DNA of 64,000 nucleotides. Origin: Candidatus Saccharimonadota bacterium. Its GTDB lineage: Bacteria > Patescibacteriota > Saccharimonadia > Saccharimonadales > Saccharimonadaceae. The notes beneath the pieces were generated by a model, which was not told where the DNA came from, did no database searches, and saw nothing but the letters and a program-made list of their open reading frames with translations. Numbering within the stretch: the first letter of the stretch is position 1; each line of letters begins with the position of its first letter. Positions 3,571 through 32,722 of this stretch are shown here, piece by piece. Position numbers and translations under genes: made by a program. Location of the stretch: NCBI GenBank assembly GCA_017561575.1, contig JAFZBS010000006.1, positions 1 to 64,000 on the forward strand, written 5' to 3'.

Positions 3571-3599
3571 AATATCCCCAGTCTCCTGGGGATATTTTT
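3571..3599. terminator. Terminator between the FISUMP gene and rplA
   Basis: Perfect 11-bp stem (AATATCCCCAG against CTGGGGATATT) with a TCTC loop and a T-run on the plus strand. A-rich flanks on the other side may allow it to serve rplA as well. Confidence 0.8.
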
Positions 3600-3613
3600 A
3601 AAGATTAGACAAT

Positions 3614-10597: not shown

Positions 10598-10627
10598 ATG
10601 CGAGAGTGTAGGAGTAAGGACCTGTGA
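10598..10627 (+). CDS. Leaderless minicistron (9 codons) translationally coupled to the giant gene
   Basis: An extended -10 (TGTTATAAT, ending 10591) is followed 6 nt later by ATG and nine codons (MRECRSKDL). Its TGA (10625-10627) overlaps the GTG start of the 2013-aa gene (10624-10626). An AGGAG inside the minicistron lies about 9 nt before that GTG. This is the classical geometry for translational coupling. Whether the peptide itself matters is unknown. Confidence 0.5.
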   Translation: MRECRSKDL

Positions 10628-16600: not shown

Positions 16601-16665
16601 CTGCTAACTATGTTGTTACCGGCAATGCCACTCTGACGGCTACTGGAGAGGCGTTAAATCCGTAG
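10624..16665 (+). CDS. Giant secreted surface protein with four FISUMP domains and InlB-type repeats
   Basis: A 2013-aa protein. A signal peptide (LIIVNILAFTSLLFTSQAVFA) is cleaved near residue 29 or 30. A beta-domain follows. Four FISUMP modules lie at about residues 289-531, 742-969, 1175-1411 and 1650-1912, each with TDxRDxxTYAVxKLxD, ENLRLD, DICPxxWRLP and a final VRC/IRC. Between them are InlB B-repeats (GYGFAGWNTEPDGSGTNYGP ... LYAHW). Divergent InlB-like repeats occupy about 1425-1630 and 1925-2013. There is no LPXTG or membrane anchor at the C-terminus. The start is a GTG overlapping the minicistron. It is probably an adhesin or a host-contact fibre; this is inferred from the domain types. 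Confidence 0.88.
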   Translation: MRGPIKKLIIVNILAFTSLLFTSQAVFADSDLSISISSNSVHMDLTVGVFGTESQTITASTTNSAGYKIKLTTAGSSSALVNEQDSSKTIPTFTLPSGSSSIPVGSIGDGYGYSIDSGANYLPIPEPFATPAVLFQTTTAGSNNHALTFGVKVPVSTEPGNYSNSFNIIIVANLLPCPADSICYAGNDDDGTGTMADQSASSNSSVDLLASNFSRPGYGFAGWNTEPDGSGTNYGPNQAITTGDLSVTGLQLYAHWIRSSGTLQSWNGCSEMTAIRYDDTTGELIMGQNSITALTDSRDQNTYAVVKFADDHCWMIENLRLDLNKQDLSITNLNTNKPTGDFSTAVNTNHPASSNSFCANNNATCNNQILFNTNNTNRNLTASYDANTNSSSWYSYGNYYNWYTATAGNGTYGLSNEGSSAAGDICPANWRLPSGYGNVGDLAILDTTMGGTGANQTSGTAGGLAASKRWRAYPYNYILSGEYRSNAGYNRGTSSSYATINVVSATNTANLWLKPDGVHMNSNGTAKVRGQTVRCLFNPGYHVSGNIHYDANGGTGTMSDETNVDFSSAVAANNAFTRTHYQFTGWNTAADGSGVVVSEGGSVATAADRMGISEGQTLTLYATWRSVYSLVYDGNGADAGTMTNAKVNNLEPGRSRLVASNFSRTGYGFAGWSIDSSAGTKLANGQAVTIYGPNQSITVDNNFYANADQDNQITLYAVWIQADSNYTMQSFGSAQCNYMEFGEIIALTDTRNNDVYAVARLEDGNCWMIENLRLDPSTTTFTSSNTNSPTADFITAAPNSASSNTLCNGDNDTCINTIRFNTNALNRNLTPAHNNNSIDRSWYSYGVMYNWYTASAGNGTYNTSNTNVAGDICPVGWRLPTGGQNGEFVTLNNLANNGSTNSDSGFVKFPDNFIYSGDFNYDTPGGRNSYGRYWSATPDGNLNAYRLGIISSNPTPAGSYKKWDAFAVRCIKEGDEFMPDAVEYILDYDAGYFATDVPEDEATTSHNSSHRFTLSTSVIPHVFGYQFLGYSSANGDTTPEYAYDAATGTFTPSTITVDSTDETNTVTIYVVFQEDTCPADYICYFDNGADGGIGTMEDQPATSNSTATLTPPNYSKTGYGFAGWITSADAVPYGPNATINTGDLSSSGLKLYAKWIPSSGNLQNWNGCNSMTQGDITALTDIRDNQTYAVAKLGDEKCWTVENLRLDPGTATITSENTNNPDANFIEATNDNNTHSMNTLCNVRGPECLNQIQYNANSLNRTLTQSYTSNDAVSGWYSYGVYYNWYTATAGKGTFSTMEQSGPNHDGVIDGDICPAGWHLPTGGGGGEYNALNAIINNSSDSSDLVWRAYPNNFIWSGDYNNNKRSSSYSNGRIWTATTKDNDRSYRLGYAEGALQASSNSDNKWDGFAVRCVLSDTATEYNDVTVTLPQNVNNVTFTSNNYATATATGANNVVSLARGATYTITASIGSGYILDTWTAGANGFIGNSNQNPTTFTITDDTTLTLSVNQATSYTVTVNLDAGTSSVDFYHADYGTQTVTNNNGNGDGTTTTTINLYAGINYTITPNLSNGYSFGSWSTTSSGNLGSTSSATTSYSISGAATLSATSTSYLGPEPPASCNTPVPNITYMQQINTSNYTAVLGTLTTEQAYYLRDSRDGEPYCVSKLADGRLWMIDNLRLDLGDSNTLSNVTASNTNATAAQLQYLKNGGGTASDQYPTAGINSEAWVNSNQDYYSVPMSVSSGTCLNPGSCVNESDTEWTKDSTVTVYGNGSGKVGVLYNYCAASAGTYCYGNGTNKTNIPETDSNPSSYYDLDGDICPTGWRMPTGNTAGEIYGLYNYYGYRNASSPSSLQYKTSIPFAGSFMSGQLNSFPTYQGAIWTATRGNASNPQQFIVKQDTITMSNSLTHNYATAIRCILETPVHTVTVNFAGSGVSSVTISNPAYDAQTVTTSGGTVTLRHGISYTVTTTLSDADYGFVDYATTSNGSFDATTNNPANYVVTGNATLTATGEALNP

Positions 16666-16742: not shown

Positions 16743-16861
16743 AGATAAAACTAGAAACTTCGTTTCTATGCCACTCCTGAAATAAAAAATATGAGAGCAA
16801 GCTCTCAATTTTGTTATTTCAGTCGTGTCATACGAAAAGCTGCGCTTTTCTAGTTTTATCT
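16743..16861. other. 119-nt four-way-junction (cloverleaf-like) inverted-repeat element
   Basis: Outer arms AGATAAAAC / GTTTTATCT (16743-16751, 16853-16861) enclose three hairpins. The first is TAGAAAC/GTTTCTA (16752-16768). The second is a long imperfect stem of about 20 bp at 16777-16822, capped by a perfect 7-bp TGAGAGC/GCTCTCA. The third is GAAAAGC/GCTTTTC (16834-16850). Alternatively the outer arms extend to a perfect 15-bp inverted repeat. It is not a tRNA. It could be a structured RNA, a small inverted-repeat element, or a replication/recombination site of the adjacent mobile element. Nothing in this 500-bp stretch between genes is clearly coding. Confidence 0.7.
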
Positions 16862-17075
16862 GGTTCGAACAATTTTCGTGGCTGGAACTTAAGTACATTG
16901 ATAGGAACCGAAGAAGATGACAAATTCTGCATAATTAAGTCGCGAATTACGATTCTGAAGCCACTATTACAGAGGTGCGACGCACAAGAGCTAAATCCAT
17001 GGAATCCATGGCTCTGGTTGGAGCCGGACTACAAACGCTAGCCATTGGCGATTTTGGCGAAAAATAGACGATTAT

Positions 17076-17099
17076 ACGACCCCTGTAGGGCCGTTTTTT
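17076..17099 (+). terminator. Probable terminator in the intergenic region
   Basis: Stem ACG-CCC / GGG-CGT with one mismatch and a CTGTA loop, followed by TTTTTT. It may close transcripts reading out of the structured region, or a degraded frame that ends with a stop at 17065-17067 (tail QTLAIGDFGEK) and lacks a start. Confidence 0.55.
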
Positions 17100-17163
17100 G
17101 ACTTTATGCTCGAACCGCGTTGTAATATGAAAACTTGCGCCGGATGATATAATTAGAGTAAGT

Positions 17164-17943
17164 ATGGCATTCGATTTCAAAAAAGAATACAAAGAGTTTT
17201 ATATGCCGAAGAATAAACCGGCGATTATCGAAGTGCCAAAGATGAACTATATCGCCGTTAGAGGTAAAGGCAACCCAAACGAAGAAAACGGAGACTATCA
17301 GAATACTTTAGGTCTATTATACGGTATAGCTTACACGCTAAAAATGAGTTATAAGGGCGATCATAAGATAGATGGGTTCTTTGAATACGTTGTGCCGCCA
17401 TTAGAGGGCTTTTGGTGGCAAGATGGAAAAGATGATATAGATTACGATCATAAAGAAGCTCTAAATTTCATTTCAATTATTCGTTTACCAGACTTTGTAA
17501 CAAAAGAAGACTTTGACTGGGCGATAGAAGAAGCCACCAAAAAGAAGAAACAAGACTTCTCTAGGGTGGAGTTTTTAACCTATGACGAGGGTTTATGCGT
17601 TCAATGTATGCATATCGGAAGCTACGATGATGAGCCGGCCACCGTTGAATTAATGCATAAATACATGCAAGATAACGGATATGAACTAGATATAACTGAT
17701 AAAAGATATCACCATGAGATTTATCTAAGCGATCCAAGAAAATGTGACGCAAGCAAGCTTAAAACCGTAATCAGGCACCCAATTAAGAAAAGTGGCTGGT
17801 CGGAAGAAGCTTGTAAAAACATGATGGAATTAATAGAAACCGTTAAGAAGATCGAGAAAGAGCAAGCTAGAATGACGCCGGAAGAAAAGAAACGCAACGA
17901 GTGGGCAGCTTGGGACGGCGACACTATGCTGTTCAAATATTGA
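17164..17943 (+). CDS. GyrI-like small-molecule-binding domain protein
   Basis: A 259-aa protein. The N-terminal half matches the GyrI/YdeE-like effector-binding fold: VPKMNYIAVRGKGNPNEENG, LGLLYGIAYTLKM and FFEYVVPPLEGFWW. The second half repeats the alpha/beta pattern (EFLTYDEGLCVQCMHIGSYDDEP). No DNA-binding domain is attached, so it is a stand-alone ligand-binding protein. A TATAAT at 17148-17153 lies 10 nt before the ATG without a Shine-Dalgarno. It is probably co-transcribed with the gene at 17985, 41 bp away. The ligand is unknown, and it is unclear whether this gene belongs to the chromosome or to the mobile element. Confidence 0.8.
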   Translation: MAFDFKKEYKEFYMPKNKPAIIEVPKMNYIAVRGKGNPNEENGDYQNTLGLLYGIAYTLKMSYKGDHKIDGFFEYVVPPLEGFWWQDGKDDIDYDHKEALNFISIIRLPDFVTKEDFDWAIEEATKKKKQDFSRVEFLTYDEGLCVQCMHIGSYDDEPATVELMHKYMQDNGYELDITDKRYHHEIYLSDPRKCDASKLKTVIRHPIKKSGWSEEACKNMMELIETVKKIEKEQARMTPEEKKRNEWAAWDGDTMLFKY

Positions 17944-17984
17944 TACCGCCTCAATGGCGCAACCTCAAAAGAAACGAGGTGATT

Positions 17985-18425
17985 ATGGCAAAACGCCGAT
18001 TATACAAGAAGCCGAAGAATGGCGAACCTATCAAGGTAACCGCCAGACAGCTCCATCAACTCTATGTTAAACACGAAGGCATCCTTACTTCGCGAGAATA
18101 TTGCGATCTAAAGAATATGGAGCTGATAGATTCAAACATTAGAGACGCCAAATGGGCGCTTAGGGAATTTGATGACGAAACATTACTCGGGACCTGGGAT
18201 AAAGAGATGCGCTTTGGCTATGGAAAACGCGTCTATATTCATTACGACGGCGAGGATAAGGATAAATACTTCTTCTCTCTCGCCTACATTCCACGTGCTT
18301 TAAACGACCGCGACGTAAACGAAGCGATCCTGCGTATGTATTTCGTACGACGCTGGACGGTAACGAAACTCTGGCTTTGGGCTGAGCCGGTAGATATTAC
18401 GCCAAGCTACGGCCGCGAATTCTAG
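17985..18425 (+). CDS. Hypothetical protein, 146 aa
   Basis: The start at 17985 has GAGGTG 5 nt upstream; a longer frame overlapping the GyrI-like gene is less likely. The N-terminus is basic (MAKRRLYKKPKNGEPIKV). The rest contains aromatic-rich strands (YGKRVYIHYDGEDKDKYFFS; VRRWTVTKLWLWAEP). There is no membrane helix or known motif. It follows the GyrI-like gene and ends before the promoter of the envelope operon. Confidence 0.6.
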   Translation: MAKRRLYKKPKNGEPIKVTARQLHQLYVKHEGILTSREYCDLKNMELIDSNIRDAKWALREFDDETLLGTWDKEMRFGYGKRVYIHYDGEDKDKYFFSLAYIPRALNDRDVNEAILRMYFVRRWTVTKLWLWAEPVDITPSYGREF

Positions 18426-18553
18426 AAAATAAAGCGCCAGAAAGTCAATAGATAGCATCCACTTGATCACAATCGGACTTTTGACCTTTTTCGTGCAGAA
18501 AACAGGGATAAAGTTTTTTCTTGACACCAAATGGTGAAATATGCCCAAAATGC

Positions 18554-18582
18554 TTGACTTTTTATTCCTATTATGCTATAAT
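18554..18582 (+). promoter_or_regulatory. Sigma70-type promoter of the five-gene envelope operon
   Basis: TTGACT (18554-18559), a 17-bp spacer, and the extended -10 TGCTATAAT (TATAAT at 18577-18582). A 60-nt leader with AAGGAG leads to the ATG at 18643. A 5-bp inverted repeat (CACCA/TGGTG) lies about 20 nt upstream of the -35. Confidence 0.75.
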
Positions 18583-18642
18583 GAAAGATAACCTTGCAAA
18601 CAATTGATAAAATTTGTTGGGAAAGTAATAAAGGAGAAAGAT

Positions 18643-19926
18643 ATGTCTTCCAGGAGACGACAAAAACAACAAGAACGTATGATGCGAAATTTCGTTTATA
18701 CTGTTGGTGCTGCGGTAATTGCCGTTCCTTTATTATTTCTTGGTTTTTCTTCTATCATAAAAACAGGCAACCCGTGTGATTTATATGGGAATAGAGATGA
18801 AATAAGCGGAAGATCGGGCTGGTGTTCTACCAGGTATGGCTATGATAAAGTTGCAATCGTCGTAGGCAATACCCAAAATTCCCCTGTTCCAAAATTGGAT
18901 GAGAAAAGTAAAGAAATTATTACGGATGCGTTCTTTTCTGCGAATCCAGATGAGGACGAATTAAACTTGCCAATCATATCCGCAAGTACTGGGAATGATT
19001 TGATTGACCTCAAAGGTGAAGTTCAAGCGCCCGGTAGCAATATGACGGCAACTAAGAATATATTGACGAGCAATTTTTCGATTATTGAAGAAAAAATAGG
19101 TACAGCTCCAAATAAAGATGGCGCTGATTATCTTAATGCCATCTTAAAAGCATCAGATCTAGTCAAAGGCGGCACAAAACCTGCAATTATTATAATCGGT
19201 TCTGGCTATTCAGATAGTGGAAAGCTAAACTTCAGTACTGACAAACTACTAGAAAATTACACGGCTGCAAGAAAATATAGCAAAGAACACGACTATATTT
19301 CGAGTATCTTTAACTCAGATACAAGATATTATGGTAACGAATTAGAGAATGTCGATATTCATTGGGTAAACCTAGGCTATGTCACTAGTCCGCAGATGCC
19401 ACTTCAGGAGTACAAACAAACCGAAGAAAACATTTATAATGACGTATTTAAATACCTTGGCGTTAGTAAATTCGAAACAGGCGCAGGTACACTTTTATCT
19501 TATTCTATTGACACAGATCGCACAGTAAAAACGGTAATACCTGATAATGTAGTTATCAAAGGCAAAACATTTGATATTAACGAAAAAGTTGGAAGGTTCC
19601 ATCCTGATCAGTTCATCCTTATAAATGAGCAAGAAGTCAAAAAATATCTGAAAGAGAATATCGTCGACAATTACGGCGGAGAGAAACTAGTTATAACTGG
19701 CTATATTGCATATTGTGTGGAAACCGGATCGTTAAGTACCGATCGTGCTAATACGATTAAAAACATTCTTATTTCATTAGGCATACCAGCCGACAAAATT
19801 GAAACCAAAGGTATGCCTGGCTCGCCAGTTACGGATGATAAAAAAGAAGACGACAGAGGCGGATATACCTGCAATAGTGTTTTACCAGATACCGAGAGAC
19901 GCACAGTTAGAATTGAGGTGCAATAG
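18643..19926 (+). CDS. Membrane-anchored protein with C-terminal OmpA-like domain
   Basis: A 427-aa protein. The start at 18643 follows AAGGAG. One N-terminal membrane helix (FVYTVGAAVIAVPLLFLGFS) anchors a large outside part. Residues about 65-260 have an alpha/beta layout with hydrophobic strands (VAIVVGN and KPAIIIIGSGYSDSG), like a von Willebrand A or phosphatase-like fold but without a clear MIDAS. The last 115 residues follow the OmpA pattern (LVITGYIAYC, STDRANTIKNILISLGIPADKIETKGMPG, ERRTVRIEVQ) and may bind peptidoglycan or its teichoic decoration. It is the first gene of a five-gene operon. The membrane helix has no acidic residue, so a MotB/ZorB-type proton channel is unlikely. Confidence 0.7.
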   Translation: MSSRRRQKQQERMMRNFVYTVGAAVIAVPLLFLGFSSIIKTGNPCDLYGNRDEISGRSGWCSTRYGYDKVAIVVGNTQNSPVPKLDEKSKEIITDAFFSANPDEDELNLPIISASTGNDLIDLKGEVQAPGSNMTATKNILTSNFSIIEEKIGTAPNKDGADYLNAILKASDLVKGGTKPAIIIIGSGYSDSGKLNFSTDKLLENYTAARKYSKEHDYISSIFNSDTRYYGNELENVDIHWVNLGYVTSPQMPLQEYKQTEENIYNDVFKYLGVSKFETGAGTLLSYSIDTDRTVKTVIPDNVVIKGKTFDINEKVGRFHPDQFILINEQEVKKYLKENIVDNYGGEKLVITGYIAYCVETGSLSTDRANTIKNILISLGIPADKIETKGMPGSPVTDDKKEDDRGGYTCNSVLPDTERRTVRIEVQ

Positions 19927-19927
19927 T

Positions 19928-20806
19928 ATGGCTACTTTTCAGACATATCAAAACTATGCGAACCATGGCCGCACATTTAATACTTACTTTTTGACTTCTC
20001 TATCGGTGCTCGCTTCGATTCTAGTTGGTATGTTTTTATACAACATAAAAGCTCTGGACACTAACAATGCCGGATGGATTCTTACAATCCTAATAGCTGT
20101 TCCAGTATTAGTGTTTATTGCTAATTGGAATAATTACAGCTTAAGAACGGCTTATTATAAAACATGGAGAGATATATTACAGGGCAGGGTTGATAGAAAA
20201 AAACTACTGAGAGAGTTTGCGAGAACCTATCACATAAAAACATGGCGGAAAAAAGTTGAGCATATTGAAGCAGACGGTAGATGGAATTTTAAAGCTAACA
20301 CTCCGTATATTAGAAGCTTAACCGAAGAAAGAGATTCTTGGATAAGTTTGCTTTATCAAGAGTGCATTGATAGAATTGCTGACATTGATAAACAAATTAT
20401 TACCGCAAAAAGCAATAACGACAGCGACAATAGAGATCTCTATTTAGCAACACGAGTGGCTGACGAAGCGGAGGATATGTTAAATAATGCGAAATCAGCA
20501 GCTGAGACTTATTTTCAAAGACAGAAGGTTGCTATGAAGAGAACCGCAAAAAAAGACTCGGAACAAAATGTTTTGAACTCACAGCATTCTATACATACTC
20601 TACAGGTTGAACGCAAAAACGTAATCGATGATTTTTGTCAGTCAGCCACTAGAATAATTGACTCATATAATGGACGTCACGAAAAATATGCCGAATCAGC
20701 GGTTAAGATTTTGAATAAGATTAATAATTTGCATTATGAAATCCAACCTATACCAGAATCTTCGTTAGTTAATTTTAGAAAGGATTTAACAAATGGGAAT
20801 GTTTAA
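19928..20806 (+). CDS. Two-TM protein with long helical cytoplasmic domain
   Basis: A 292-aa protein starting one base after the previous stop codon. Two membrane helices (FLTSLSVLASILVGMFLY and GWILTILIAVPVLVFIANW, about residues 19-62) are followed by about 225 residues of charged helix and probable coiled coil (QECIDRIADIDKQI; RVADEAEDMLNNAKSAAETY). No enzymatic motif is seen. It overlaps the next gene by 14 bp, so the two are likely translationally coupled. With its neighbours it may form a membrane complex. I do not recognise the family. Confidence 0.65.
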   Translation: MATFQTYQNYANHGRTFNTYFLTSLSVLASILVGMFLYNIKALDTNNAGWILTILIAVPVLVFIANWNNYSLRTAYYKTWRDILQGRVDRKKLLREFARTYHIKTWRKKVEHIEADGRWNFKANTPYIRSLTEERDSWISLLYQECIDRIADIDKQIITAKSNNDSDNRDLYLATRVADEAEDMLNNAKSAAETYFQRQKVAMKRTAKKDSEQNVLNSQHSIHTLQVERKNVIDDFCQSATRIIDSYNGRHEKYAESAVKILNKINNLHYEIQPIPESSLVNFRKDLTNGNV

Positions 20807-21278
20807 TTTTTTCCATAAGAAGAAGGATGAATCTCCGGATTGGAGAAAACCAGAAGCTATTCCTAAAGAGGTTCTATCAAAAAAAGAACTTGACGATTTA
20901 GAACATCAGGTAATAGCGGAATTGCGCGAAAATGATACTCTACATCCTCAAGCGCTTTTCTATATCCATAAGTATATCGATGCGAAATTCGACAAAAGAG
21001 ATTTTGATGTTGACACTGCGTATGCAAAGAAGCAAAGTGTCATCGATGAACTATATGCGGAAGGATTAAGCGATATTTACTCCTCTTTTACTGGATACAA
21101 AGGTCTTGTTGATGAAATTACGGCAGCGCGTGAAAATTTAGAAAGAATTGCAAAAAATTTAGATATGGATAACGCAGAAGTTAATACCAAAGAATATGAC
21201 GATACTGAAGAGATGCTCAAAGAGATCGAGTCCCTTCCTACAAGCTTGAATTGGAACACGAAGAAAGGAGACAGATAA
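20793..21278 (+). CDS. Soluble helical partner protein, 161 aa
   Basis: The ATG lies within the end of the upstream gene and has AAAGGA before it. The start is amphipathic and basic (MGMFNFFHKKK), possibly lying on the membrane. The rest is acidic and helical (KELDDLEHQVIAELREN; LVDEITAARENLERIAKN). There are no Cys pairs, P-loop or catalytic motif. Its position between two membrane proteins suggests a cytoplasmic subunit of the same complex. Confidence 0.6.
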   Translation: MGMFNFFHKKKDESPDWRKPEAIPKEVLSKKELDDLEHQVIAELRENDTLHPQALFYIHKYIDAKFDKRDFDVDTAYAKKQSVIDELYAEGLSDIYSSFTGYKGLVDEITAARENLERIAKNLDMDNAEVNTKEYDDTEEMLKEIESLPTSLNWNTKKGDR

Positions 21279-21279
21279 T

Positions 21280-22101
21280 ATGAACTCCGAACGAAACAAG
21301 AAGAGGTCTTTTATCCCAAAAATAACTCGACCGAACAAAGGCTTTCACTTCCCTAAAATAGCGTATTTCTTCACTATCGTTGGAATTTTGAGTGAAGTTG
21401 TTGATGCGATATTTCTAGCAACAACATTAGCCGGAAACAGTGGTCGCGCAATGGAAGATTGGCAAGCTTGGGCTATTTCATTTATCATCGGTGCTACATG
21501 TTATGCGTCTATGGCCTTAATCGGTTATCAGCGCGGTAAACATAATGTTGAAAAGCAAAAAGGTGAGTGGATCGGGTACTTGACCTGGGCAGCAGCCGGT
21601 ATATCGCTAGTGCTCGTCCGTCTGTGGGTCAGTGGCCTAGGAACCTTGGTCATGGGTGGCTCGATGTCCGGAACCGTCTTAAAACAGTTTTTAATGGGCG
21701 CCGGCGTTGCGTTTTTGCAATTAGTCTTGTATTTTGGCACTGGCTTCATGTCTAGAGATAGTGCCGAGATACTGTCCGATAACAATATTTGGGAATACAG
21801 GCGCGCAAAAAGACATTACGAGGATTTATTAGATGAACTTGAAGACAGAAGAAAAGAACTTAAAGAAGGTATTTCTATACTTCAGATTTACCCTACTTAT
21901 GCTGAGCGCCTTTCAAAATCAAAAGATTCTGTAAGTGATAATATTTCACAATATAATGAATCAGCTCGTGCAATGATTGAGGCTAAAATGGCCATCAACG
22001 TGGAACCAGACTTAATGAATGACATGTATGATAAGGCGATGACAAAGTCTGGTCGCAATCCAGTTCGTAGCCGTTCGAAAAAACATAATTTAGAAGATTA
22101 A
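21280..22101 (+). CDS. Four-TM protein with C-terminal coiled coil
   Basis: A 273-aa protein with AAAGGAG before the ATG. It has four membrane helices: IAYFFTIVGILSEVVDAIFL, AWAISFIIGATCYASMALIGY, WAAAGISLVLVRLWVSGLG and FLMGAGVAFLQLVLYFGTG. A charged helical tail (YEDLLDELEDRRKELKEG) follows, ending in a basic cluster. A 4-TM plus coiled-coil layout next to a 2-TM plus coiled-coil protein and an OmpA-like anchor suggests an envelope-spanning assembly. The family is not recognised. Confidence 0.65.
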   Translation: MNSERNKKRSFIPKITRPNKGFHFPKIAYFFTIVGILSEVVDAIFLATTLAGNSGRAMEDWQAWAISFIIGATCYASMALIGYQRGKHNVEKQKGEWIGYLTWAAAGISLVLVRLWVSGLGTLVMGGSMSGTVLKQFLMGAGVAFLQLVLYFGTGFMSRDSAEILSDNNIWEYRRAKRHYEDLLDELEDRRKELKEGISILQIYPTYAERLSKSKDSVSDNISQYNESARAMIEAKMAINVEPDLMNDMYDKAMTKSGRNPVRSRSKKHNLED

Positions 22102-22104
22102 TCT

Positions 22105-22989
22105 ATGTATAGGAAGTCAAGTGACGGGATAGTGGCTTTTCTAACAGTTATCGGCATTTTGATTGCAGTATTTTCTCTCGTAAGAGTCAACAACGTTACT
22201 TTCGGTGCTAATAATACATACCAAACAAACAGTACAAAACAAGAAAACGCACACGCCGACGAAATGAATTCATCGGCTCAATCAGGTGATGAATCAAAAA
22301 ATCGCCCAACAGAAACAATTAAACTTAGCGATACTGAAAAATTAGATAATAATTTTTATAAAGTTGAATCCGTTGTTGATGGTGATACTATCAAGATTAC
22401 CTATAATGGTTCTTTAACGTCTGTCAGAATTATTGGGGTAAATACTCCTGAGACAGTAGATCCAAGAACAACGGTCGAATGTTTTGGGACTGAAGCATCA
22501 GAATACTTAAAGCAAAAACTAGATGGAAAGTCGATCCGTATAGCCACGGATTCCACCCAAGCGGATAGAGATAAGTACAATAGGCTTCTTAGATATGTAT
22601 ATTTAGATGGCGAAGATGTAGGCTTATCGATAATTGCAAACGGGTATGGTTACGAATATACATACAATATACCATATGCGCACCAGTCGGATTATAAAAA
22701 AGCTCAAGTCGATGCAGAAAATCAGAATAAGGGCCTTTGGGCTCCAGAAGCATGTAACGAAACCGGTTCCATAAACAATAATGATATCTCGCCGTCAATG
22801 ACTCAGTCGACTCAAAACCAAAGTGATTGTAATATCAAGGGAAATATTAGCTGGAGTGGAGAAAAAATCTACCACATGCCTGGGCAACAATATTATGAAT
22901 CAACAATAATAGATACAGCTTATGGTGAAAGATGGTTTTGCTCGGAAGCTGAGGCGCAAAGTGCAGGTTGGAGAAAATCTAAAGTCTAA
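22105..22989 (+). CDS. Membrane-anchored/secreted thermonuclease (SNase) with C-terminal surface module
   Basis: A 294-aa protein. A signal or anchor helix (VAFLTVIGILIAVFSLVRV) and a linker of about 50 residues precede an SNase domain at about 85-215: VESVVDGDTIKI, VRIIGVNTPET (catalytic Arg and Glu), DKYNRLLRYVYLDG (second Arg) and AENQNKGLWAPEAC. The final 55 residues (CNIKGNISWSGEKIYHMPG ... CSEAEAQSAGWRKS) match the short sunset/excalibur-type module common on CPR and Gram-positive surface nucleases. It cleaves DNA or RNA outside the cell. It is the last gene of the operon, 3 bp after the 4-TM gene. It may feed nucleotides to a nucleotide-requiring symbiont, or help an element move. Confidence 0.88.
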   Translation: MYRKSSDGIVAFLTVIGILIAVFSLVRVNNVTFGANNTYQTNSTKQENAHADEMNSSAQSGDESKNRPTETIKLSDTEKLDNNFYKVESVVDGDTIKITYNGSLTSVRIIGVNTPETVDPRTTVECFGTEASEYLKQKLDGKSIRIATDSTQADRDKYNRLLRYVYLDGEDVGLSIIANGYGYEYTYNIPYAHQSDYKKAQVDAENQNKGLWAPEACNETGSINNNDISPSMTQSTQNQSDCNIKGNISWSGEKIYHMPGQQYYESTIIDTAYGERWFCSEAEAQSAGWRKSKV

Positions 22990-23033
22990 AGGATTTAAAA
23001 TCTCGCTTACAGTGACGAGTAATAAACAGTACG

Positions 23034-23065
23034 AATACCGCAATCTAATAACTTGCGGTATTTTT
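23034..23065 (+). terminator. Terminator of the envelope operon
   Basis: Perfect 10-bp stem AATACCGCAA / TTGCGGTATT, a 9-nt loop and a T-run. Confidence 0.9.
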
Positions 23066-23170
23066 CTGATAATTATAAAAATCGTTTAGCGAAAGATGAA
23101 GTAAATAGCTTTTAGATCTGGTATTATTCTAGATTTGGAATATAATAGTTAATAGAATAAGTGAGGTAAA

Positions 23171-24235
23171 ATGAATTATATTTCAGCAAAAGAAACGGCT
23201 ACAAAATGGGATATCTCTCAGCGAAGAGTAGCTACTTTGTGCTCTGAAGGTCGTATTATCGGCGCTATGTTCGTCGGGAATTCATGGGTAATTCCATGCG
23301 ATGCCGCAAAACCAATAGATGCACGAACGAAAGCCGCATCGTTAGTCAATACCGAAGCAAAACCATTTCTAAAATGGGCTGGCGGAAAAGGCCAATTACT
23401 TAAGGAAATCGAACAATACTACCCTTTCACCAAGGATACTACCATAACAAAATACGCAGAGCCGTTCGTCGGTGGTGGCGCAGTCTTATTCGATATTTTA
23501 AATAAGTTCGAACCTCAGCAAGTCTATATTAGCGACATTAACGCAGAACTGATAAACACATATACGATAATTCGAGATGATATCGATACACTATTGGACG
23601 TTTTAAGACGATTTGAGACCGATTACTTAGCATTAGACAATGATAACCGCAAGGAAGCCTATCTCGCCAAACGTGCGCGATTTAACGAGCTTAAGAGCAA
23701 ACAAGAAAATGGAGTCGAGCTAGCCGCCCTGATGATATTCCTTAACAAGACTTGCTTTAACGGGTTATACCGCGTAAATCGCAAAGGCGAATACAATGTA
23801 CCAATGGGCGCTTATAAGAATCCACTTATTTGTAATGAATATAACTTGAAAGCAGTATCTAAGAAACTACGGAACGTAAAGATAGTATGTGGCGACTATA
23901 AGGAATCTGGTGACTTCATAGATAGCAAAACGTTTGTCTACTTCGATCCGCCATACCGCCCATTAACACCGACTGCCAACTTTACGTCATACACAGAGGG
24001 CATGTTTGACGATAAAAACCAGTTAGAGCTTGCAAAATTCGTTCAAGAACTAGACAAAAAAGGCGCCAAGATAGTCGCAAGCAATTCCGATCCAAAGAAC
24101 GCCAACGAAGATGATAATTTCTTCGATGACGCATACGCAAAACAGAATATCAAACGCGTCTCCGCAACGCGCATGATAAATAGAAATAGTGATAAACGCG
24201 GAAAAATTAACGAATTATTAATATCAAACTTCTAA
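23171..24235 (+). CDS. Dam-type DNA adenine methyltransferase with N-terminal HTH
   Basis: A 354-aa protein. Residues 1-50 (YISAKETATKWDISQRRVATLCSEGRI) form a helix-turn-helix like those of excisionase or MerR-type proteins. The rest is a D12-class adenine-N6 methylase with FLKWAGGKGQLL (SAM-binding FxGxG), a YAEPFVGGGAVLFDIL block, LNKTCFNGLYRVNRKGEYNVP, and the catalytic DPPY at about residue 259. The GATC-type Dam/DpnM family is closest in pattern, but the target site is not proven. A GAGGT ribosome binding site precedes the ATG, and a TATAAT is upstream. It leads a three-gene restriction-modification operon. The HTH might let it regulate that operon. Confidence 0.87.
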   Translation: MNYISAKETATKWDISQRRVATLCSEGRIIGAMFVGNSWVIPCDAAKPIDARTKAASLVNTEAKPFLKWAGGKGQLLKEIEQYYPFTKDTTITKYAEPFVGGGAVLFDILNKFEPQQVYISDINAELINTYTIIRDDIDTLLDVLRRFETDYLALDNDNRKEAYLAKRARFNELKSKQENGVELAALMIFLNKTCFNGLYRVNRKGEYNVPMGAYKNPLICNEYNLKAVSKKLRNVKIVCGDYKESGDFIDSKTFVYFDPPYRPLTPTANFTSYTEGMFDDKNQLELAKFVQELDKKGAKIVASNSDPKNANEDDNFFDDAYAKQNIKRVSATRMINRNSDKRGKINELLISNF

Positions 24236-24252
24236 GAAAGGAGAAGAAAAAA

Positions 24253-24792
24253 ATGAAAAAAGGCGGTATCTATGGTGGCAATACAAGAACGGGTTTAATT
24301 TTTGAGGGTAAAACCGATTTAGCAACGTTTCTGTCGAAACAGGATGGTTATCGTGTAGAAAATGACGAAGAAATCTTCTACAACGACGAATTGGTTGCAA
24401 GAGTATTTAAAAAACACAAATTTTATAATGTATTTCTTAAAGAACTTGGGATTGATTGGAAGCAGTACATCTCAAAGCAACTCTTACCAGACGATAGTAT
24501 TTATGTAATTTTGAATAATATTTTGTTTATCATCGAATGTAAGCACCAGGAAGTTGCTGGCTCGGTAGATGAAAAACTTCAAACTTGTGACTTTAAGAAA
24601 AAACAATATCAAAAGCTCATGTCCAAAGCGAACATTGATGTTGAATATATCTATCTTCTCGATAATTGGTTCAGGGATCCAAAATACAAAGACGTTCTAG
24701 ACTACATCCAAAGCGTAGATTGCGATTATTATTTTGAATATATCCCACTAACAAGACTCGGCTTGCCAGTTCCAGAAACCGAGGGAGAATAA
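24253..24792 (+). CDS. PD-(D/E)XK restriction endonuclease
   Basis: A 179-aa protein. The catalytic core is visible as PDD (residues 79-81) and ECK (95-97) separated by two hydrophobic strands (SIYVILNNILFIIECKHQE), the standard PD-(D/E)XK nuclease pattern. The N-terminal GGNTRTGLIFEGKTDL block is seen in several type II restriction enzymes. An AAAGGAG ribosome binding site precedes the ATG. It lies between two methylases, which supports a restriction role. It is much shorter than DpnII/MboI (about 280 aa), so it may have a different specificity or need a partner. Confidence 0.83.
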   Translation: MKKGGIYGGNTRTGLIFEGKTDLATFLSKQDGYRVENDEEIFYNDELVARVFKKHKFYNVFLKELGIDWKQYISKQLLPDDSIYVILNNILFIIECKHQEVAGSVDEKLQTCDFKKKQYQKLMSKANIDVEYIYLLDNWFRDPKYKDVLDYIQSVDCDYYFEYIPLTRLGLPVPETEGE

Positions 24793-24799
24793 AACATTC

Positions 24800-25561
24800 A
24801 TGCCCGATAAAAAGAAAGAAATAAAGAAATGGGAGCCAGACGATTTTGAGTTAGAAATGACTAGCGTCTGGAGTTTCCCTAATCGTGGCAACTGGGCTAC
24901 CCACGATGCAAAATGGCGCGGAAACTGGTCGCCATATATTCCAAGAAATATCCTGCTCCGCTATTCAAAAGAGGGAGACTGGGTATTGGACCAATTTGCT
25001 GGTGGCGGCACTACATTAGTAGAGGTAAAACTACTGAACCGCAACATCATTGGAATGGATATTAACCCGGTCGCACTTAAAAGATGTCGCGAAAAAGTAA
25101 AATTCAAGCACGAGGGCGCAGACGGTATAGTCAAGGTGTCAAAATGTGATGCGCGCAACCTAAAACCAATTCCGGACGAAAGCATCGACCTAATCTGTAC
25201 GCATCCCCCATATGCGAATATTATCCATTACAGCGAGGGTCAAGATATTCCACAGGATTTATCAAACTTTAAAGTCAATGATTTCATAGAACAGATGAAA
25301 AGCGTGGCATCAGAAAGCTATCGCGTATTAAAGTTTGGCAAATTCTGTGCAATTTTAATGGGCGACACGCGCCAAAAAGGTCACGTAATTCCATTGAGCT
25401 TTAAGACAATGAAAGTTTTCGAAGAGGCCGGCTTTAAACTAAAAGAAATAATTATGAAAGAACAACATAATTGTCGAGCGACTGGATATTGGAAAACAAA
25501 TAGCATCAAATATAATTTCTTATTACTTGCACACGAATATTTATTCATATTCGAAAAATAA
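24800..25561 (+). CDS. Second DNA methyltransferase of the RM locus, N6/N4 amino type
   Basis: A 253-aa protein. The SAM-binding motif DQFAGGGTTLVE is preceded by the block FPNRGNWATHDAKWRGNWSP typical of beta-class N4-cytosine/N6-adenine methylases. The catalytic loop reads HPPYANI instead of DPPY or SPPY and comes after motif I, so the order is permuted relative to beta-class enzymes. It starts 7 bp after the nuclease stop codon. Two methylases around one nuclease recall DpnII-like loci, or systems with an asymmetric target needing one enzyme per strand. Confidence 0.82.
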   Translation: MPDKKKEIKKWEPDDFELEMTSVWSFPNRGNWATHDAKWRGNWSPYIPRNILLRYSKEGDWVLDQFAGGGTTLVEVKLLNRNIIGMDINPVALKRCREKVKFKHEGADGIVKVSKCDARNLKPIPDESIDLICTHPPYANIIHYSEGQDIPQDLSNFKVNDFIEQMKSVASESYRVLKFGKFCAILMGDTRQKGHVIPLSFKTMKVFEEAGFKLKEIIMKEQHNCRATGYWKTNSIKYNFLLLAHEYLFIFEK

Positions 25562-25587
25562 AAATGGCTGAATGCTATAATATAAAC

Positions 25588-27612
25588 ATGGATCAAGGTG
25601 TATTCCAAGATAAAGCACGCGGTATGCTTGTCGGCCTAGCGGTCGGCGATGCCTTGGGCGCACCGGTTGAATTCGGATACACGAGCCATGGTATTCGCCA
25701 GATGGGCGACGAAATTGAAAACCTTAGAGAATCGATGATTCTCCCTGCTGGTGCTTGGACAGACGACACCTCGATGGCGCTTTGTTTAGCCGACAGTCTT
25801 TTGGAAAAGGGCGGATATGACTCGTATGATATTATGGATAAATTTCGCAGTTGGGTGGTATATGGATACAGAAGCTTCGATAATAAACCCGCCTTCGATG
25901 TGGGAACACAAACCGCAAATGCAATAGGCCTTTACCATAGGGACCCTATCATTCATAAGAATGAACCAAAAACGGAATCAGCTGGAAACGGTACGATAAT
26001 GAGATTGGCTCCGGTCGTAATCGCTAATTGCCATAACAAAACAAACACTAGACAAGACGATATGGAGAAAGCTTGTTATATGGCCACTCTTTCTTGTCGC
26101 GAAACCCACAATTCCGATATAGCAATAGATATCACAGGCATGTTTGCTACAGTACTCTGTCTGGCTTTCTATGGACTAAATAAAAAAGAGATACTTTCAC
26201 GGCGTGACGAGCTATACAGATATTACAAAATCGACGGGTTGAGTCGAATTAACGACAAAAGCGGTGATACTTTGGCTGATCTTGGCGGCTACGTAGTTGA
26301 CTGTTTTACCATAGCATTATGGGGATTGATAAATTTTAACACCTTCAGGGAAGGTATGTTAGCCGTCATACGTTTGGGTGGCGATACGGATACGAATGCA
26401 GCTTGCTATGGCCAATTAGCAGGCGCTTATTACGGCTACAAGGCTATTCCAAAAGAATGGAGCAAAAACGTTCTTAACTCAGAGGAATTAATAGAAATAG
26501 CTGATGAACTTTTAAATATGAAAGAGTGCCCAATCATACAAACACGTTTTGAAGGTAATCGCTTCTTCAAAAAACCAAACGATTTTCAAGAAAGAATTGT
26601 ATTTGCAGATCCCTTGAAAAAAGAGGAAGAAAATGAGCAAGCTTTTGATGAGGATAAGCCAGAAGAAATTCAGAGTATTGGCGAAATATTAAAGAGCTAT
26701 ATAAGGGAAGGTCAATCGAAGAGCAAGAAGGATCCATTTAATAGAAACAATGCACCAGCCAATCGAAGTGATAGGCGCGAAAGATTAAAGAGTATATTCG
26801 ACGATACAAGATCGTTTATTAGAAAAAATCAGAAAATATCAGATGAAACTATTAAGGCTAGCAAAGAAGCTCGATTTTATGATTATGCCGATTTCGAAGC
26901 CTTTTCTAAAGTAAAGCCCAAGAAAACAATATTATCGGTTACAAGTGAACGTTCTCTTGAGGCCGCAAAGAGAATGTTAAACGAAAAAACCGATAAGGTT
27001 GCCGTCCTTAACTTTGCGAACTGTTCAACCCCAGGTGGCGGTGTATTTGGTGGAAGCGGTGCCCAAGAGGAAAGCTTATGTCGTTGCTCTAATCTTTATC
27101 CAATCATATCGCAAGAACGTTTCCAACATTTATATTACGATCCAAATAGAGCTCGTTGGGATCCACGCGCCACAGACGCCCTAATCTATGCGAGGGATGT
27201 GACCGTTTTTAAGAGCGATACGGATTATCCAGAACTCATACCAGAAGACGAATGGTATAAAGTAGATATCATTACTTGTGCGGCTCCAAATCTTAGACAT
27301 GGAACCATAATTTACGACGATCGTTTAGACGAAGAAATTGAAATGACGCATAAGCGGCAATATGATATTCATTTAAGCCGAGCTCGACATATTTATAATG
27401 TGGCGTTAGCGAATGGTGCTCGCAGGTTAGTACTAGGAGCATTTGGATGTGGCGCATTCAGAAATGACCCAGATGCAGTCGCAAGGGCATTCAAGGATGC
27501 ATTGTCTGATTATGAGGGTCAATTTGACGAAATTGTCTTTGCTATATATCACCAACCATATGAACTCGATAATTACGAGACATTCAAAAAGGTTTTTAAT
27601 AATAAGGAATAG
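25588..27612 (+). CDS. Fusion: ADP-ribosylglycohydrolase (ARH/DraG) + microbial PARG (TIGR02452-like)
   Basis: A 674-aa protein starting at 25588, because TATAAT (25576-25581) ends 6 nt before this ATG; an in-frame ATG at 25564 lies upstream of that box. Residues about 8-310 are an ARH fold: ARGMLVGLAVGDALGAPVEF, the magnesium-binding TDDTSM (58-63), GNGTIMRLAPV and GGDTDTNA (about 264-271). A charged linker of about 100 residues follows. Residues about 400-670 match microbial PARG, with the signature GGGVFGGSGAQEES (about 484-498) and a closing LVLGAFGCGAFRND. Both halves keep their catalytic residues. They should remove ADP-ribose from protein, nucleic acid or ADP-ribose chains. It is followed 3 bp later by a macro-like protein. 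Confidence 0.9.
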   Translation: MDQGVFQDKARGMLVGLAVGDALGAPVEFGYTSHGIRQMGDEIENLRESMILPAGAWTDDTSMALCLADSLLEKGGYDSYDIMDKFRSWVVYGYRSFDNKPAFDVGTQTANAIGLYHRDPIIHKNEPKTESAGNGTIMRLAPVVIANCHNKTNTRQDDMEKACYMATLSCRETHNSDIAIDITGMFATVLCLAFYGLNKKEILSRRDELYRYYKIDGLSRINDKSGDTLADLGGYVVDCFTIALWGLINFNTFREGMLAVIRLGGDTDTNAACYGQLAGAYYGYKAIPKEWSKNVLNSEELIEIADELLNMKECPIIQTRFEGNRFFKKPNDFQERIVFADPLKKEEENEQAFDEDKPEEIQSIGEILKSYIREGQSKSKKDPFNRNNAPANRSDRRERLKSIFDDTRSFIRKNQKISDETIKASKEARFYDYADFEAFSKVKPKKTILSVTSERSLEAAKRMLNEKTDKVAVLNFANCSTPGGGVFGGSGAQEESLCRCSNLYPIISQERFQHLYYDPNRARWDPRATDALIYARDVTVFKSDTDYPELIPEDEWYKVDIITCAAPNLRHGTIIYDDRLDEEIEMTHKRQYDIHLSRARHIYNVALANGARRLVLGAFGCGAFRNDPDAVARAFKDALSDYEGQFDEIVFAIYHQPYELDNYETFKKVFNNKE

Positions 27613-27615
27613 GTA

Positions 27616-27999
27616 ATGGCTAGATACGATGAAAAAGGCTATATAACAGAATTAGAAAAAAACGAAGTGTTCGTCTTTGGAAGCAATGGTCACGGTGCGC
27701 ATCTGGGCGGCGCTGCGGCAACTGCTGTCCGTAAGTTTGGTGCGATAATGGGCAAATCTGAAGGACTGCAAGGACAAAGTTACGCAATCAACACTATGGA
27801 TTCAAAAGACGAAATGCTTAGCCAAATTGAAAGATTTCTGGAATTTGCAAAAAATCATCCGGAGCTTACATTTTATGTTACAGAAATTGGGTGCGGTATT
27901 GCAGGATATACGCAAAGCGAGATTGCTCCATACTTCGGAAACGTTCCAAATAACGTCATATTGCCAAAATTGTTTTTGGAAGTTTTACGAAGAAGTTAA
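27616..27999 (+). CDS. Macro-like phage-type protein (A1S_2505 family pattern)
   Basis: A 127-aa protein. The signature VFVFGSNGHGAHLGGAAATA followed by FGAIMGKSEGLQGQSYAINT is that of a small phage non-structural family with a macrodomain-like loop that probably binds ADP-ribose or NAD derivatives. A GCGIAGYTQSEIAPYF block near the end supports this. It starts 3 bp after the ARH-PARG fusion with a short GGAATAGG ribosome binding site, so the two are co-translated. It overlaps the convergent gene at 27996 by 4 bp. Confidence 0.78.
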   Translation: MARYDEKGYITELEKNEVFVFGSNGHGAHLGGAAATAVRKFGAIMGKSEGLQGQSYAINTMDSKDEMLSQIERFLEFAKNHPELTFYVTEIGCGIAGYTQSEIAPYFGNVPNNVILPKLFLEVLRRS

Positions 28000-28340
28000 C
28001 TATTGATGTAAGCCTGAATAGCTTCTTTGACTCCGCACTCCGGACAAATCTCCGTCTCGTTATCCTCGCGAGATAAGGCGGGGTGCTCCGTAAACTCTTT
28101 CGTACATTTCGGACAACGCTGAAGCTCTAGAATCTTATATGTCAATGTCTTAGGCAAAGATTCAAGCTCCTCTCGCAGAATATCTTCGTCATTGTAACGC
28201 TTAGCATCAACTAAAAACGAAGAATATTGCTCGTTCGGCTTAAGTTTCATGCCATTGGCGTCGTATCTGCCGACATAGTACCAGATATCTTTATCGTGAA
28301 TTACGCCGATAACGTATTCACATATACCAATATTACTCAT
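27996..28340 (-). CDS. Small zinc-ribbon protein, phage/plasmid style
   Basis: A 114-aa protein from the ATG at 28340, which has AAGGAG 7 nt upstream; the longer frame is unsupported. The C-terminus holds a four-cysteine zinc site: CPKC, then ALSREDNETEICPECGVKEAI. That last block is common in small phage and plasmid proteins. The N-terminal part (NIGICEYVIGVIHDKDIWYYVG) is unrecognised. It is the only gene in the element known to point left, and it converges on the macro-like gene. Confidence 0.68.
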   Translation of the reverse strand: MSNIGICEYVIGVIHDKDIWYYVGRYDANGMKLKPNEQYSSFLVDAKRYNDEDILREELESLPKTLTYKILELQRCPKCTKEFTEHPALSREDNETEICPECGVKEAIQAYINS

Positions 28341-28560
28341 ATAAATACTCCTTAAACCCTGCAAGGTCTTTTCTAACACCGACCATTAAAGAGCAACTTT
28401 GGATTAAAGTTAATATTCAGTTGTGGGTTAGTTAAAATTGCGGCATCCCTTTGCAGGGTTGTCCAATTTAACCTTACTTTGGGATATTTTGCAAGTCACT
28501 CTAACACCTTACGACCCCAAGAAGATATGGTATAATATAGATAACTAATTGGAAGTTGTA
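28341..28560. promoter_or_regulatory. Divergent intergenic region with inverted and direct repeats
   Basis: It contains a 10-bp inverted repeat (AACCCTGCAA near 28355 and TTGCAGGGTT near 28453), two copies of TCTAACACC about 130 bp apart, and an extended -10 TATGGTATAAT (TATAAT at 28531-28536) for the rightward gene. It may be a control region or part of a replication origin. No iteron array is clear. Confidence 0.4.
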
Positions 28561-29322: not shown

Positions 29323-29401
29323 CGCAGTATTATTGCAATAATAACGCTGAACTCTCTTTTTGTATCCTTGAAATATGGAATGAAGAGGTAATATAACGTA
29401 T

Positions 29402-29510
29402 CAGAAAGACAAGAAACTAGAGCAACAAGCGCTCGTAAAGTTTCTAGAAATATTAATCGATATAGACAAGCGCGAGCATGTCGTCAATAAGGATGACGAC
29501 AATGAATAGC
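29402..29510 (+). CDS. Possible small ORF without standard start codon
   Basis: An open frame of about 36 codons (KKLEQQALVKFLEILIDIDK ... DDDNE) ends in TAG at 29508-29510 and overlaps the SpoVG-like gene start by 9 nt. An AGAGG lies upstream, but the frame offers only ACG or ATA as a start after the preceding stop. The sequence is helix-like and charged, as in a real small protein. It is either a non-canonical start or a decayed gene. Confidence 0.25.
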
Positions 29511-30981: not shown

Positions 30982-31079
30982 CGCTATCGTAGGGTGGTTC
31001 TTTACGGCTATTTTAGTTGCGAATAGCCCAACTCCAAAGATCCATTTATGATATGGACTTATGAAAGGTTTAGGGTATT

Positions 31080-32660
31080 ATGTTTGATAACATGGGAAAC
31101 TCTACCCCTGTAAATACCGGCAAAACTAATGAGCCGCAACTAACTAGAAAAGCCGTTCTATTCGCTCGCGTATCAACGGCGCGACAAGAAAAAGAAGGCT
31201 TATCTCTCGATGAAATTCAGCTACCGCGAATGCGAGATTACGCGATCGAGCAAAACTTAAAAATCGTGCGCGAATACGCCATTGGCGAAACTGGTGGTAG
31301 CTATAAAGAGCGTAAACGTTTCAACGAGATGATCCAATTCTTAAAGGATAATCCGGATGTAACAGATATTATCGCCTTTCGTGTAGATCGCATTACTAGA
31401 AACTTCCGTGACGCTGTAACTATCGAAGATTTACGCATTAAATACGGCAAGCGCATCCACTGCGTTGATGAAAGGCTGATTCTCTCGGAGAATAGCCGCG
31501 CGACCGACCTCACATCCTGGAATGTGAAGGTTTTTGTGGGCCAGGAATACTTAAACCGCATTAAAGAAGACGGCCTTAATACGAAGATTAATAAACTGTC
31601 GCGCGGCGAGCTACCATGGAGCGCGCCTTATGGCTATGAATTTAGAACTATCAGCGTCAGGCCGAAGGTTAAAAACGTCGTTCCGGTAGAGCCGGCCGCG
31701 TCGATCGTAAAAGAGGTATTCTTGCTCTTCTCGACCGGAACATATTCATGTAGAACCTTAGCAAGACTAATGAACAAGAAATACGGCACTAAATTCTCGC
31801 AAGGAATCATCCACAAATTCCTAAGATGCGAGTTTTACGTCGGATTTATTATCGATAAAAAAGGCGGAAAGAAATATCCACATAATTACGAGAAGATAAT
31901 AGATCGAGAGTTGTTTGATATGGTTAATCAGATACTCGACAAGAGAAACCTTAAGGGCGACGACCAAGTACCAAAATATGGTGGCATAGAATCGGCTTAT
32001 CGTGGATTAATCCGCTGTGAAGAGTGCGGATGTACAATAACGCCAGAATTTAAGAAGCGTAAGCTACGACATGGCGGCTACAATTATCACAAATACTACC
32101 ACTGCACGAATAGACGAGGAGCGCATAAGAGTATGAAAAGTTACACCGAAGAGTATCTTGATGACAAGGTAAAAGAATTCCTGCGAGGCCTAAGATTAAC
32201 TGAGGCTGAATTAGACGAGATTAGAAAGGCGTTAGCCGAAGCGCATGCCGGAAAGATAGATTTCTATCGCGAGCAACGCCGAAGTTTATCTCAAAAGCGT
32301 AAGAAACTAGAAGCAAGACAGCAGGAAGCTTACGATATGCTAATGGACAAGAGTATTACTCTGGAACTTTATAACCAAAATAACGAGCGATATCGCAACG
32401 AACTGGCTGAGATCCAGGCGCAAGAAGCCGCGCTAGATCGTGCCGACGACAACTTCTATACGAACGCTGGCTACATCTTAAAAGTCTTTAAATATGCCGA
32501 TAAATTATTCGACGTCGCCACAACGGCCGAAAAAAGAGACCTCATTGGTCTCGTCACGTGCTCGAACCGAACTTTAGGACCTAGCGGACTGATATTACAG
32601 GGGTCAGGACCGTTCGCTCGGAACCTTTTGGACTCAAAAACAAAAAATGGCTGGGGATGA
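31080..32660 (+). CDS. Large serine recombinase (integrase)
   Basis: A 526-aa protein. The resolvase domain starts KAVLFARVSTARQ (catalytic Ser32) and includes IIAFRVDRITRNFRD. A recombinase domain follows (GELPWSAPYGYEFR, YVGFIIDKKGGKKYPH). Next comes a zinc ribbon (CEECGCTITPEF ... YHCTN) and a long coiled coil (FYREQRRSLSQKRKKLEARQ), as in phage and ICE integrases. An AAAGG precedes the ATG. The stop codon (32658-32660) lies inside the 3' end of the convergent tRNA-Gln gene, so the gene's last codons come from the attachment site. Confidence 0.95.
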   Translation: MFDNMGNSTPVNTGKTNEPQLTRKAVLFARVSTARQEKEGLSLDEIQLPRMRDYAIEQNLKIVREYAIGETGGSYKERKRFNEMIQFLKDNPDVTDIIAFRVDRITRNFRDAVTIEDLRIKYGKRIHCVDERLILSENSRATDLTSWNVKVFVGQEYLNRIKEDGLNTKINKLSRGELPWSAPYGYEFRTISVRPKVKNVVPVEPAASIVKEVFLLFSTGTYSCRTLARLMNKKYGTKFSQGIIHKFLRCEFYVGFIIDKKGGKKYPHNYEKIIDRELFDMVNQILDKRNLKGDDQVPKYGGIESAYRGLIRCEECGCTITPEFKKRKLRHGGYNYHKYYHCTNRRGAHKSMKSYTEEYLDDKVKEFLRGLRLTEAELDEIRKALAEAHAGKIDFYREQRRSLSQKRKKLEARQQEAYDMLMDKSITLELYNQNNERYRNELAEIQAQEAALDRADDNFYTNAGYILKVFKYADKLFDVATTAEKRDLIGLVTCSNRTLGPSGLILQGSGPFARNLLDSKTKNGWG

Positions 32661-32722
32661 GGGATTCGAACCCCCGAATGGTGGGACCAGAACCCACTGC
32701 CTTACCACTTGGCGAATCCCCA
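32648..32722 (-). tRNA. tRNA-Gln (anticodon CTG)
   Basis: A full cloverleaf on the minus strand: acceptor TGGGGAT / ATCCCCA, anticodon stem GTGGG / CCCAC with loop TTCTGGT, T-loop TTCGAAT, and an encoded CCA at 32650-32648. Its 3' end overlaps the stop codon of the convergent recombinase and is the likely attachment site. Confidence 0.95.

Follow-up and report, generated by a model that had tools for sequence, protein, structure and literature searches.

The window analysed here, a 64,000-nucleotide stretch of DNA from a Saccharibacteria-like genome (622,696 bases, 11 contigs, 79.7% complete), carries five genes, g1 to g5, which span positions 18643-22989 and encode a vWA-like and OmpA-like protein, two coiled-coil membrane proteins, a small helical protein, and an SNase-type nuclease (Table 1). 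Of these genes, g1 and g4 keep the same order at all 17 loci at which we confirmed the set, in the window and in 16 other species of its Saccharibacteria-like family. This recurrence is far beyond chance, and it is well supported that the genes form a conserved unit. The five-gene set, which includes three unnamed protein families, matches no named system. We tentatively infer, at somewhat less than even confidence, that it encodes a mobile accessory envelope complex by which a nuclease outside the cell is kept in place or triggered, most likely against phage or plasmid DNA.

Conservation and organization of the unit

Searches with g4 alone and with g2 alone in 295 genomes of the class gave clear matches in four other genomes, identical for the two queries, and in each of these the genes are adjacent. 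When a g4 profile was run against 394 genomes of the family, 20 were matched, and 17 (window included) were confirmed by inspection of the locus, placing carriers at approximately 5% of the sampled family. The initial annotation had expected the genes to be conserved together across genomes, and the search that could have spoken against this instead found the order of g1 and g4 intact throughout. Within that order g2 is present at 16 of the 17 loci, while g3 is a separate gene at 14 and fused to g4 at two; in one genome (G348, locus L053), a single unmatched gene of 169 amino acids stands at the place expected for g2 and g3. Among 380 sampled genomes of the phylum, full-length g1 was confined to this family.

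Successive genes are separated by 1 base pair (bp), a 14-bp overlap, 1 bp, and 3 bp. The sigma-70-type promoter upstream of g1 is the best-scoring match of the region. Only this top match is notable, since the scan gave 22 sites in total against 16.4 +/- 4.4 in shuffled sequence. The terminator hairpin 3' of g5 has the stems GAAUACCGCAA and UUGCGGUAUUUUU and a loop of 9 nucleotides. A promoter and a terminator framing five tightly packed genes had been claimed from the initial reading, and all of these features were seen at their places.

None of the family libraries searched gives a name to g2, g3, or g4. Weak Pfam matches of g2 and g3 (8xMP, DUF6526, and TelA) were seen, and those of g2 were dropped because none recurred among g2 homologs. 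Family-library scans of the operon proteins detected no ATPase, channel, pilin, relaxase, or sheath component, and we found no description of the five-gene set in the literature searched. The earlier impression that no named system has this composition thus stands, as neither a secretion or competence component nor any named system was matched.

The g5 nuclease and its link to the unit

The SNase domain of g5 is strongly supported (PF00565, E=6e-20, 72.1 bits against a cut-off of 21). It aligns with Staphylococcus aureus nuclease across the whole domain and keeps the catalytic residues Arg35, Glu43, and Arg87 (S. aureus numbering), while the metal-ligand Asp40 is replaced by Asn in the window copy. 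We infer that g5 sits outside the cell because it has an N-terminal hydrophobic anchor preceded by positive residues, and two cysteines that are conserved among the operon copies. The C-terminal sunset domain is found in five operon copies (the window, L017, L018, L019, and L044).

An SNase gene lies directly 3' of g4 at 13 of the 17 loci. Of the other operon genomes, 16 in number, 12 encode an SNase and all of these have a copy immediately following g4, whereas any SNase was found in only 11 of 148 sampled relatives that lack the operon (Fisher p = 3.6e-9, window copy left out). Among the neighborhoods listed, the solo SNases of operon-free relatives had no such neighbors and no divergent operons. 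Where the SNase is missing, its slot is taken in L046 by a secreted G5-domain protein and in L052 by a secreted protein of 153 amino acids with no Pfam match, whose C-terminus looks Excalibur-like. The claim that the unit ends in a surface SNase therefore holds in that the nuclease is a regular part of the unit and outward-facing by predicted topology, but not as a fixed rule, given the four loci without it.

Proteins g1 to g4

Structure models were built with AlphaFold2 from 17-member alignments. The window copy of g1 matches the OmpA family only weakly (PF00691, 21.5 bits, below the cut-off of 27.2), and all seven members of the first g1 alignment match it (best 2.8e-8). Residues 307-427 of the g1 model align with OmpA-type domains (Foldseek E 8e-7, Z about 12; TagL, OmpA, and Pal), the structural neighbors including TagL (5m38_C, Z 12.5), ZorB (8vvn_B, Z 10.2), and MotB domains (Z about 10-11). 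The C-terminal part of the modelled protein is accordingly of OmpA-like fold. OmpA-like wall-binding motifs contain a diaminopimelate-binding Asp in GHTD and an Arg in LSxxRA. In the 17-copy alignment, the motif Arg (Arg368 in g1) is invariant (17/17), but the Asp of GHTD is not kept in Saccharibacteria-type copies, most of which have GYxA; wall binding by g1 is therefore uncertain.

In the middle part of g1, the predicted order of strands and helices fits a vWA domain and the GADY and GSGxSD positions are conserved. The canonical DxSxS of the metal ion-dependent adhesion site is missing and nearly all 17 copies have G-N/D-T-x-N-S/T instead. A sequence search of solved structures (PDB) found no relative of the vWA-like part. 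The transmembrane (TM) segments of g1 homologs contain no conserved acidic residue. The single N-terminal TM segment and conserved cysteines show g1 to be outward-facing by predicted topology. The initial label of an OmpA-like anchor is thus correct for the fold, but g1 is not a simple anchor, as a vWA-like domain is added and the wall-binding Asp is unconserved.

The predicted numbers of TM segments in g1 to g5 are 1, 2, 0, 4, and 1, in agreement with the hydropathy of closer homologs. This upholds the earlier description of g3 as a soluble helical protein and of g4 as a coiled-coil protein with four TM segments. For g2, the description as a coiled coil with two TM segments fits the window copy but only half of its relatives: the hairpin is present in 8 of 16 copies and the others are soluble, without the TM part. 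In two genomes of genus g6 (loci L051 and L052), g3 is joined to the N-terminus of g4, and the two proteins probably touch physically, since they are fused in this genus. A single Asp in the first TM segment of g4 (Asp42) is invariant in all 17 copies and also in three aligned Actinobacterial relatives. Fold searches of the g4 model found no clear relative in the collections searched, which leave families absent from them uncovered. The MotA/ExbB family (PF01618) had no match to g4 at E<=1 and was not among the 25 families listed for the 17 members.

Carriage on a mobile element and chromosomal sites

The window operon is cargo of an element integrated at tRNA-Gln, which agrees with the carriage on a mobile element claimed at the outset: the copy lies inside an element with a large serine recombinase at that tRNA gene. 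The genome G136 has the same element at tRNA-Gln, with a recombinase 98.9% identical, and shares the window stretches 32745-28030 (93.9%), 18542-17943 (91.5%), and 17127-16879 (94.8%). Between 18542 and 28030, G136 holds a type I restriction-modification system in place of the operon and its neighbor genes. The two copies diverge at the 18542 edge, and the operon promoter lies 12 bp further in. Several relatives are without the element at this tRNA-Gln locus.

Elsewhere, the operons of G207 and G348 adjoin serine recombinases that abut tRNA-Arg. In G207 (L017), two different serine recombinases (2232-3884 and 18641-19900), at tRNA-Arg and tRNA-Lys, flank the operon region. Among the 16 fetched loci, a site-marking flanking gene was common to just one pair (G049 and G403). 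That the sites differ almost everywhere, with some copies beside recombinases at tRNA genes, points to repeated horizontal movement of the unit.

Relatives in Actinomycetota

When plasmids were searched, a relative of g1 turned up on one from Rhodococcus (profile comparison over 345 columns, E 7e-30), with a g4 relative close to it (E 1.4e-9). A second Rhodococcus plasmid has relatives of both genes, and a Nocardia plasmid has a g1 relative. The Rhodococcus homologs (L091, 7830-16506; L092, 8857-16725) lie amid large TPR proteins, with a CHAT-domain gene nearby on L091. In addition, a 4.4-kb contig of Candidatus Ancillula (Bifidobacteriales) encodes, in order, a secreted HNH/GmrSD_C lipoprotein, g1 (E 5e-36), a 225-amino-acid gene, g4 (E 3e-13), and a coiled-coil gene. 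Because the HNH protein adjoins g1 here (L094, 85-2228), an unrelated secreted nuclease accompanies the same g1/g4 core pair. No homology to g2 and g3 could be demonstrated for the coiled-coil gene (probability of 17% against g2) and the 225-amino-acid gene (0.2% against g3).

The search of genome contigs with the window g1 returned nothing, and with the Actinobacterial alignment it returned Ancillula only. Matches to g1 that include the vWA-like region were found in only 4 of 396 Actinomycetota genomes; those in G1067, G937, and G1232 had no convincing adjacent g4 and were set aside. The phage and viral collections searched contained no homologs of g1 or g4.

Comparison with known systems

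The closest comparison is with Zorya (ZorAB plus ZorE, an HNH nuclease, or ZorCD), in which a membrane protein whose tail lies in the cytoplasm is combined with a nuclease and an OmpA-like wall anchor (PMC11890865). The operon likewise has a helical protein of the inner membrane that extends a tail into the cytoplasm, a single-TM OmpA-like protein structurally close to ZorB, and a nuclease. Unlike Zorya, however, it has a g4 without a MotA/ExbB match or a clear fold match, its g1 TM segment has no Asp or Glu for ion flow (the invariant Asp lies instead in the first TM segment of g4), and g1 adds a vWA-like domain. Moreover, the nuclease is an exported SNase, whereas that of Zorya is a cytoplasmic nickase, and the PADLOC Zorya models matched none of the five genes. 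The operon thus appears to resemble Zorya in layout and not in descent, and on this comparison it would not belong to that system.

Stators of the MotAB/ExbBD type also pair a membrane protein with an OmpA-like wall anchor, but g1 lacks their TM Asp, no MotA-type protein was detected in the operon, and g4 is a block of four TM segments with short loops. The wall anchors of the type VI secretion system (TssL/TagL) and of Dot/Icm share the C-terminal OmpA-like domain, which aligns with TagL as given above, but no further component of a secretion system is present here. Secreted thermonucleases (S. aureus NucI/Nuc and sunset-domain nucleases) are like g5 in the SNase domain, the Arg/Glu/Arg residues, the N-terminal anchor, and the sunset domain. 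They differ from it in that g5 closes an envelope operon that is conserved and, in the window copy, has Asn for Asp40.

Possible function

Little is known about how foreign DNA is handled at the surface of ultra-small episymbiotic bacteria, and a conserved, mobile, nuclease-linked envelope unit is a concrete and testable target. The initial annotation regarded the genes as one envelope-facing unit, with which their conservation together and the predicted outward topology of g1 and g5 agree, and the operon may be an unrecognized machine for defence or for feeding. As a defence, g1 would be tethered to the wall, with its vWA-like domain sensing contact or a ligand. The sensed state would be passed through g4 to g2 and g3 inside, and the complex would keep the nuclease where foreign DNA enters, such that phage or plasmid DNA is cut while crossing the envelope. 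If true, the cutting step would lie outside the membrane, unlike in the known systems compared here, such as Zorya. A bolder form of this proposal, which we consider doubtful, is a new class of defence spanning Saccharibacteria and Actinomycetota, in which a wall-tethered vWA-OmpA sensor and a four-TM partner with an essential membrane Asp would govern interchangeable nucleases outside the cell, by which phage or plasmid DNA is destroyed as it enters. Since relatives of the unit are present in Actinomycetota, the phylum to which the known hosts of Saccharibacteria belong, one may ask whether it has been exchanged between the phyla of parasite and host.

Several observations weigh against defence by a surface nuclease. 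Beyond a generic SNase model and a marginal hit for g2, no member of the set matched a PADLOC defence family, and cutting by a nuclease outside the cell would be uncommon for a defence. Most of the 17 copies stand among housekeeping genes rather than defence genes. With a length of just 4.4 kb, the Ancillula contig may be misbinned, though its tetranucleotide make-up fits its bin (r 0.92-0.97). Finally, four of the 17 operon genomes (G197, G486, G187, and G041) are without any SNase. This absence, together with the Rhodococcus homologs that have TPR and CHAT neighbors and no nuclease seen, could also mean that g1 to g4 form a complex for envelope maintenance or sensing with the nuclease as a frequent passenger; we think this improbable, as the nuclease is very strongly linked to the unit and is replaced by an unrelated one.

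Nucleic-acid scavenging, in which the nuclease would cut released host DNA and RNA at the host-contact face to feed a nucleotide auxotroph, is a credible if less probable alternative. Nucleotide synthesis is missing in Saccharibacteria (PMC10633639), the breakdown of external DNA and RNA has been ascribed, as a proposal for one Saccharibacterium, to a micrococcal nuclease outside the cell (PMC6031116), and the SNase and HNH proteins look secreted. However, the operon occurs in only a small fraction of a family in which auxotrophy is general, solo SNases could do the job without g1 to g4, and the window slot is swapped with a restriction system. Defence is slightly favored over scavenging by the rarity and mobility of the unit and by its exchange, in this element, with a restriction system, and the preference is kept modest because most copies stand in housekeeping surroundings. 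The varying effector position (SNase, HNH, or G5 protein), the envelope-spanning layout with an outward effector, and the episymbiotic lifestyle would also suit contact-dependent attack, with the complex delivering or exposing the nuclease against neighbor or host cells, but family scans found no immunity gene, injection or tube component, or toxin-type delivery domain, and attack is improbable. Least probable is a role in DNA uptake or in transfer of the element. The window operon belongs to an integrated element that encodes a recombinase, and Actinobacterial homologs lie on plasmids, one near a relaxase, but the operon itself has no ATPase, channel, pilin, or relaxase, and in Southlakia, where the com machinery was examined for its part in transformation, growth did not depend on it (PMC10633639). 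Transfer of the element, one of the functions first suggested, is unlikely and was set aside as a main role, as most copies lie outside elements in ordinary chromosomal sites.

Other features of the element and its surroundings

Table 1. Coordinates of the operon, its signals, and the surrounding element in the window
Feature	Position	Strand	Basis
Sigma-70-type promoter, TTGACT-17-TATAAT, extended -10 TG	18554..18582	+	consensus match 11/12
g1, 427 amino acids: N-terminal TM segment, vWA-like domain (about 60-290), C-terminal OmpA-like domain (about 305-427)	18643..19926	+	Pfam, structure model, homologs in 16 other genomes and Actinomycetota
g2, 292 amino acids: two TM segments and predicted cytoplasmic coiled coil	19928..20806	+	hydropathy, homologs
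g3, 161 amino acids: small helical cytoplasmic protein	20793..21278	+	homologs; fusion to g4 in genus g6
g4, 273 amino acids: four TM segments and predicted cytoplasmic coiled coil, Asp42 in first TM segment	21280..22101	+	alignment of 17, model
g5, 294 amino acids: TM-anchored, predicted extracellular SNase, C-terminal sunset domain	22105..22989	+	Pfam, alignment
Intrinsic terminator, 11-bp hairpin and U-tract, 3' of g5	about 23033..23063	+	z -2.8
Cargo slot of integrated element; type I restriction-modification in G136	18542..28030	+	comparison with G136 copy
Large serine recombinase of element, overlaps 3' end of tRNA-Gln	31080..32660	+	domain search
tRNA-Gln, right border of element	32648..32722	-	tRNA call, comparison of relatives
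Leftmost stretch common to G136 copy (94.8%); left border close by	16879..17127	.	alignment

The cargo slot also contains, next to the operon (23171-25561), genes for a D12-class adenine methyltransferase with a helix-turn-helix, a PD-(D/E)XK protein, and an N4/N6 methyltransferase, which are probable restriction-modification genes. Close relatives of two of these genes, methyltransferase genes among them, lie near the G480 operon (L050). The slot also holds an ADP-ribosylglycohydrolase fused to a microbial PARG domain, followed by a gene of 127 amino acids (25564-27999). The element (16879-32722) further has a gene read as Rep-like with no family match (29770-30981), as well as SpoVG-like and Zn-ribbon genes. 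Its GyrI-like gene is only a remnant in the G136 copy (L087, 6098-6286).

Near the left border of the element lies an imperfect palindrome (16743-16861) that is 76% identical to its own reverse complement, and a similar stretch of 150 bp stands beside tRNA-Gln in G453 (L086). Just outside the element, 10624-16665 encodes a secreted repeat protein of 2013 amino acids. Further along the window, 58191-61169 encodes a secreted protein of 992 amino acids, the C-terminal part of which (CLLEGTIIALADGTNKPIEQI) resembles a Hint/intein-type domain.

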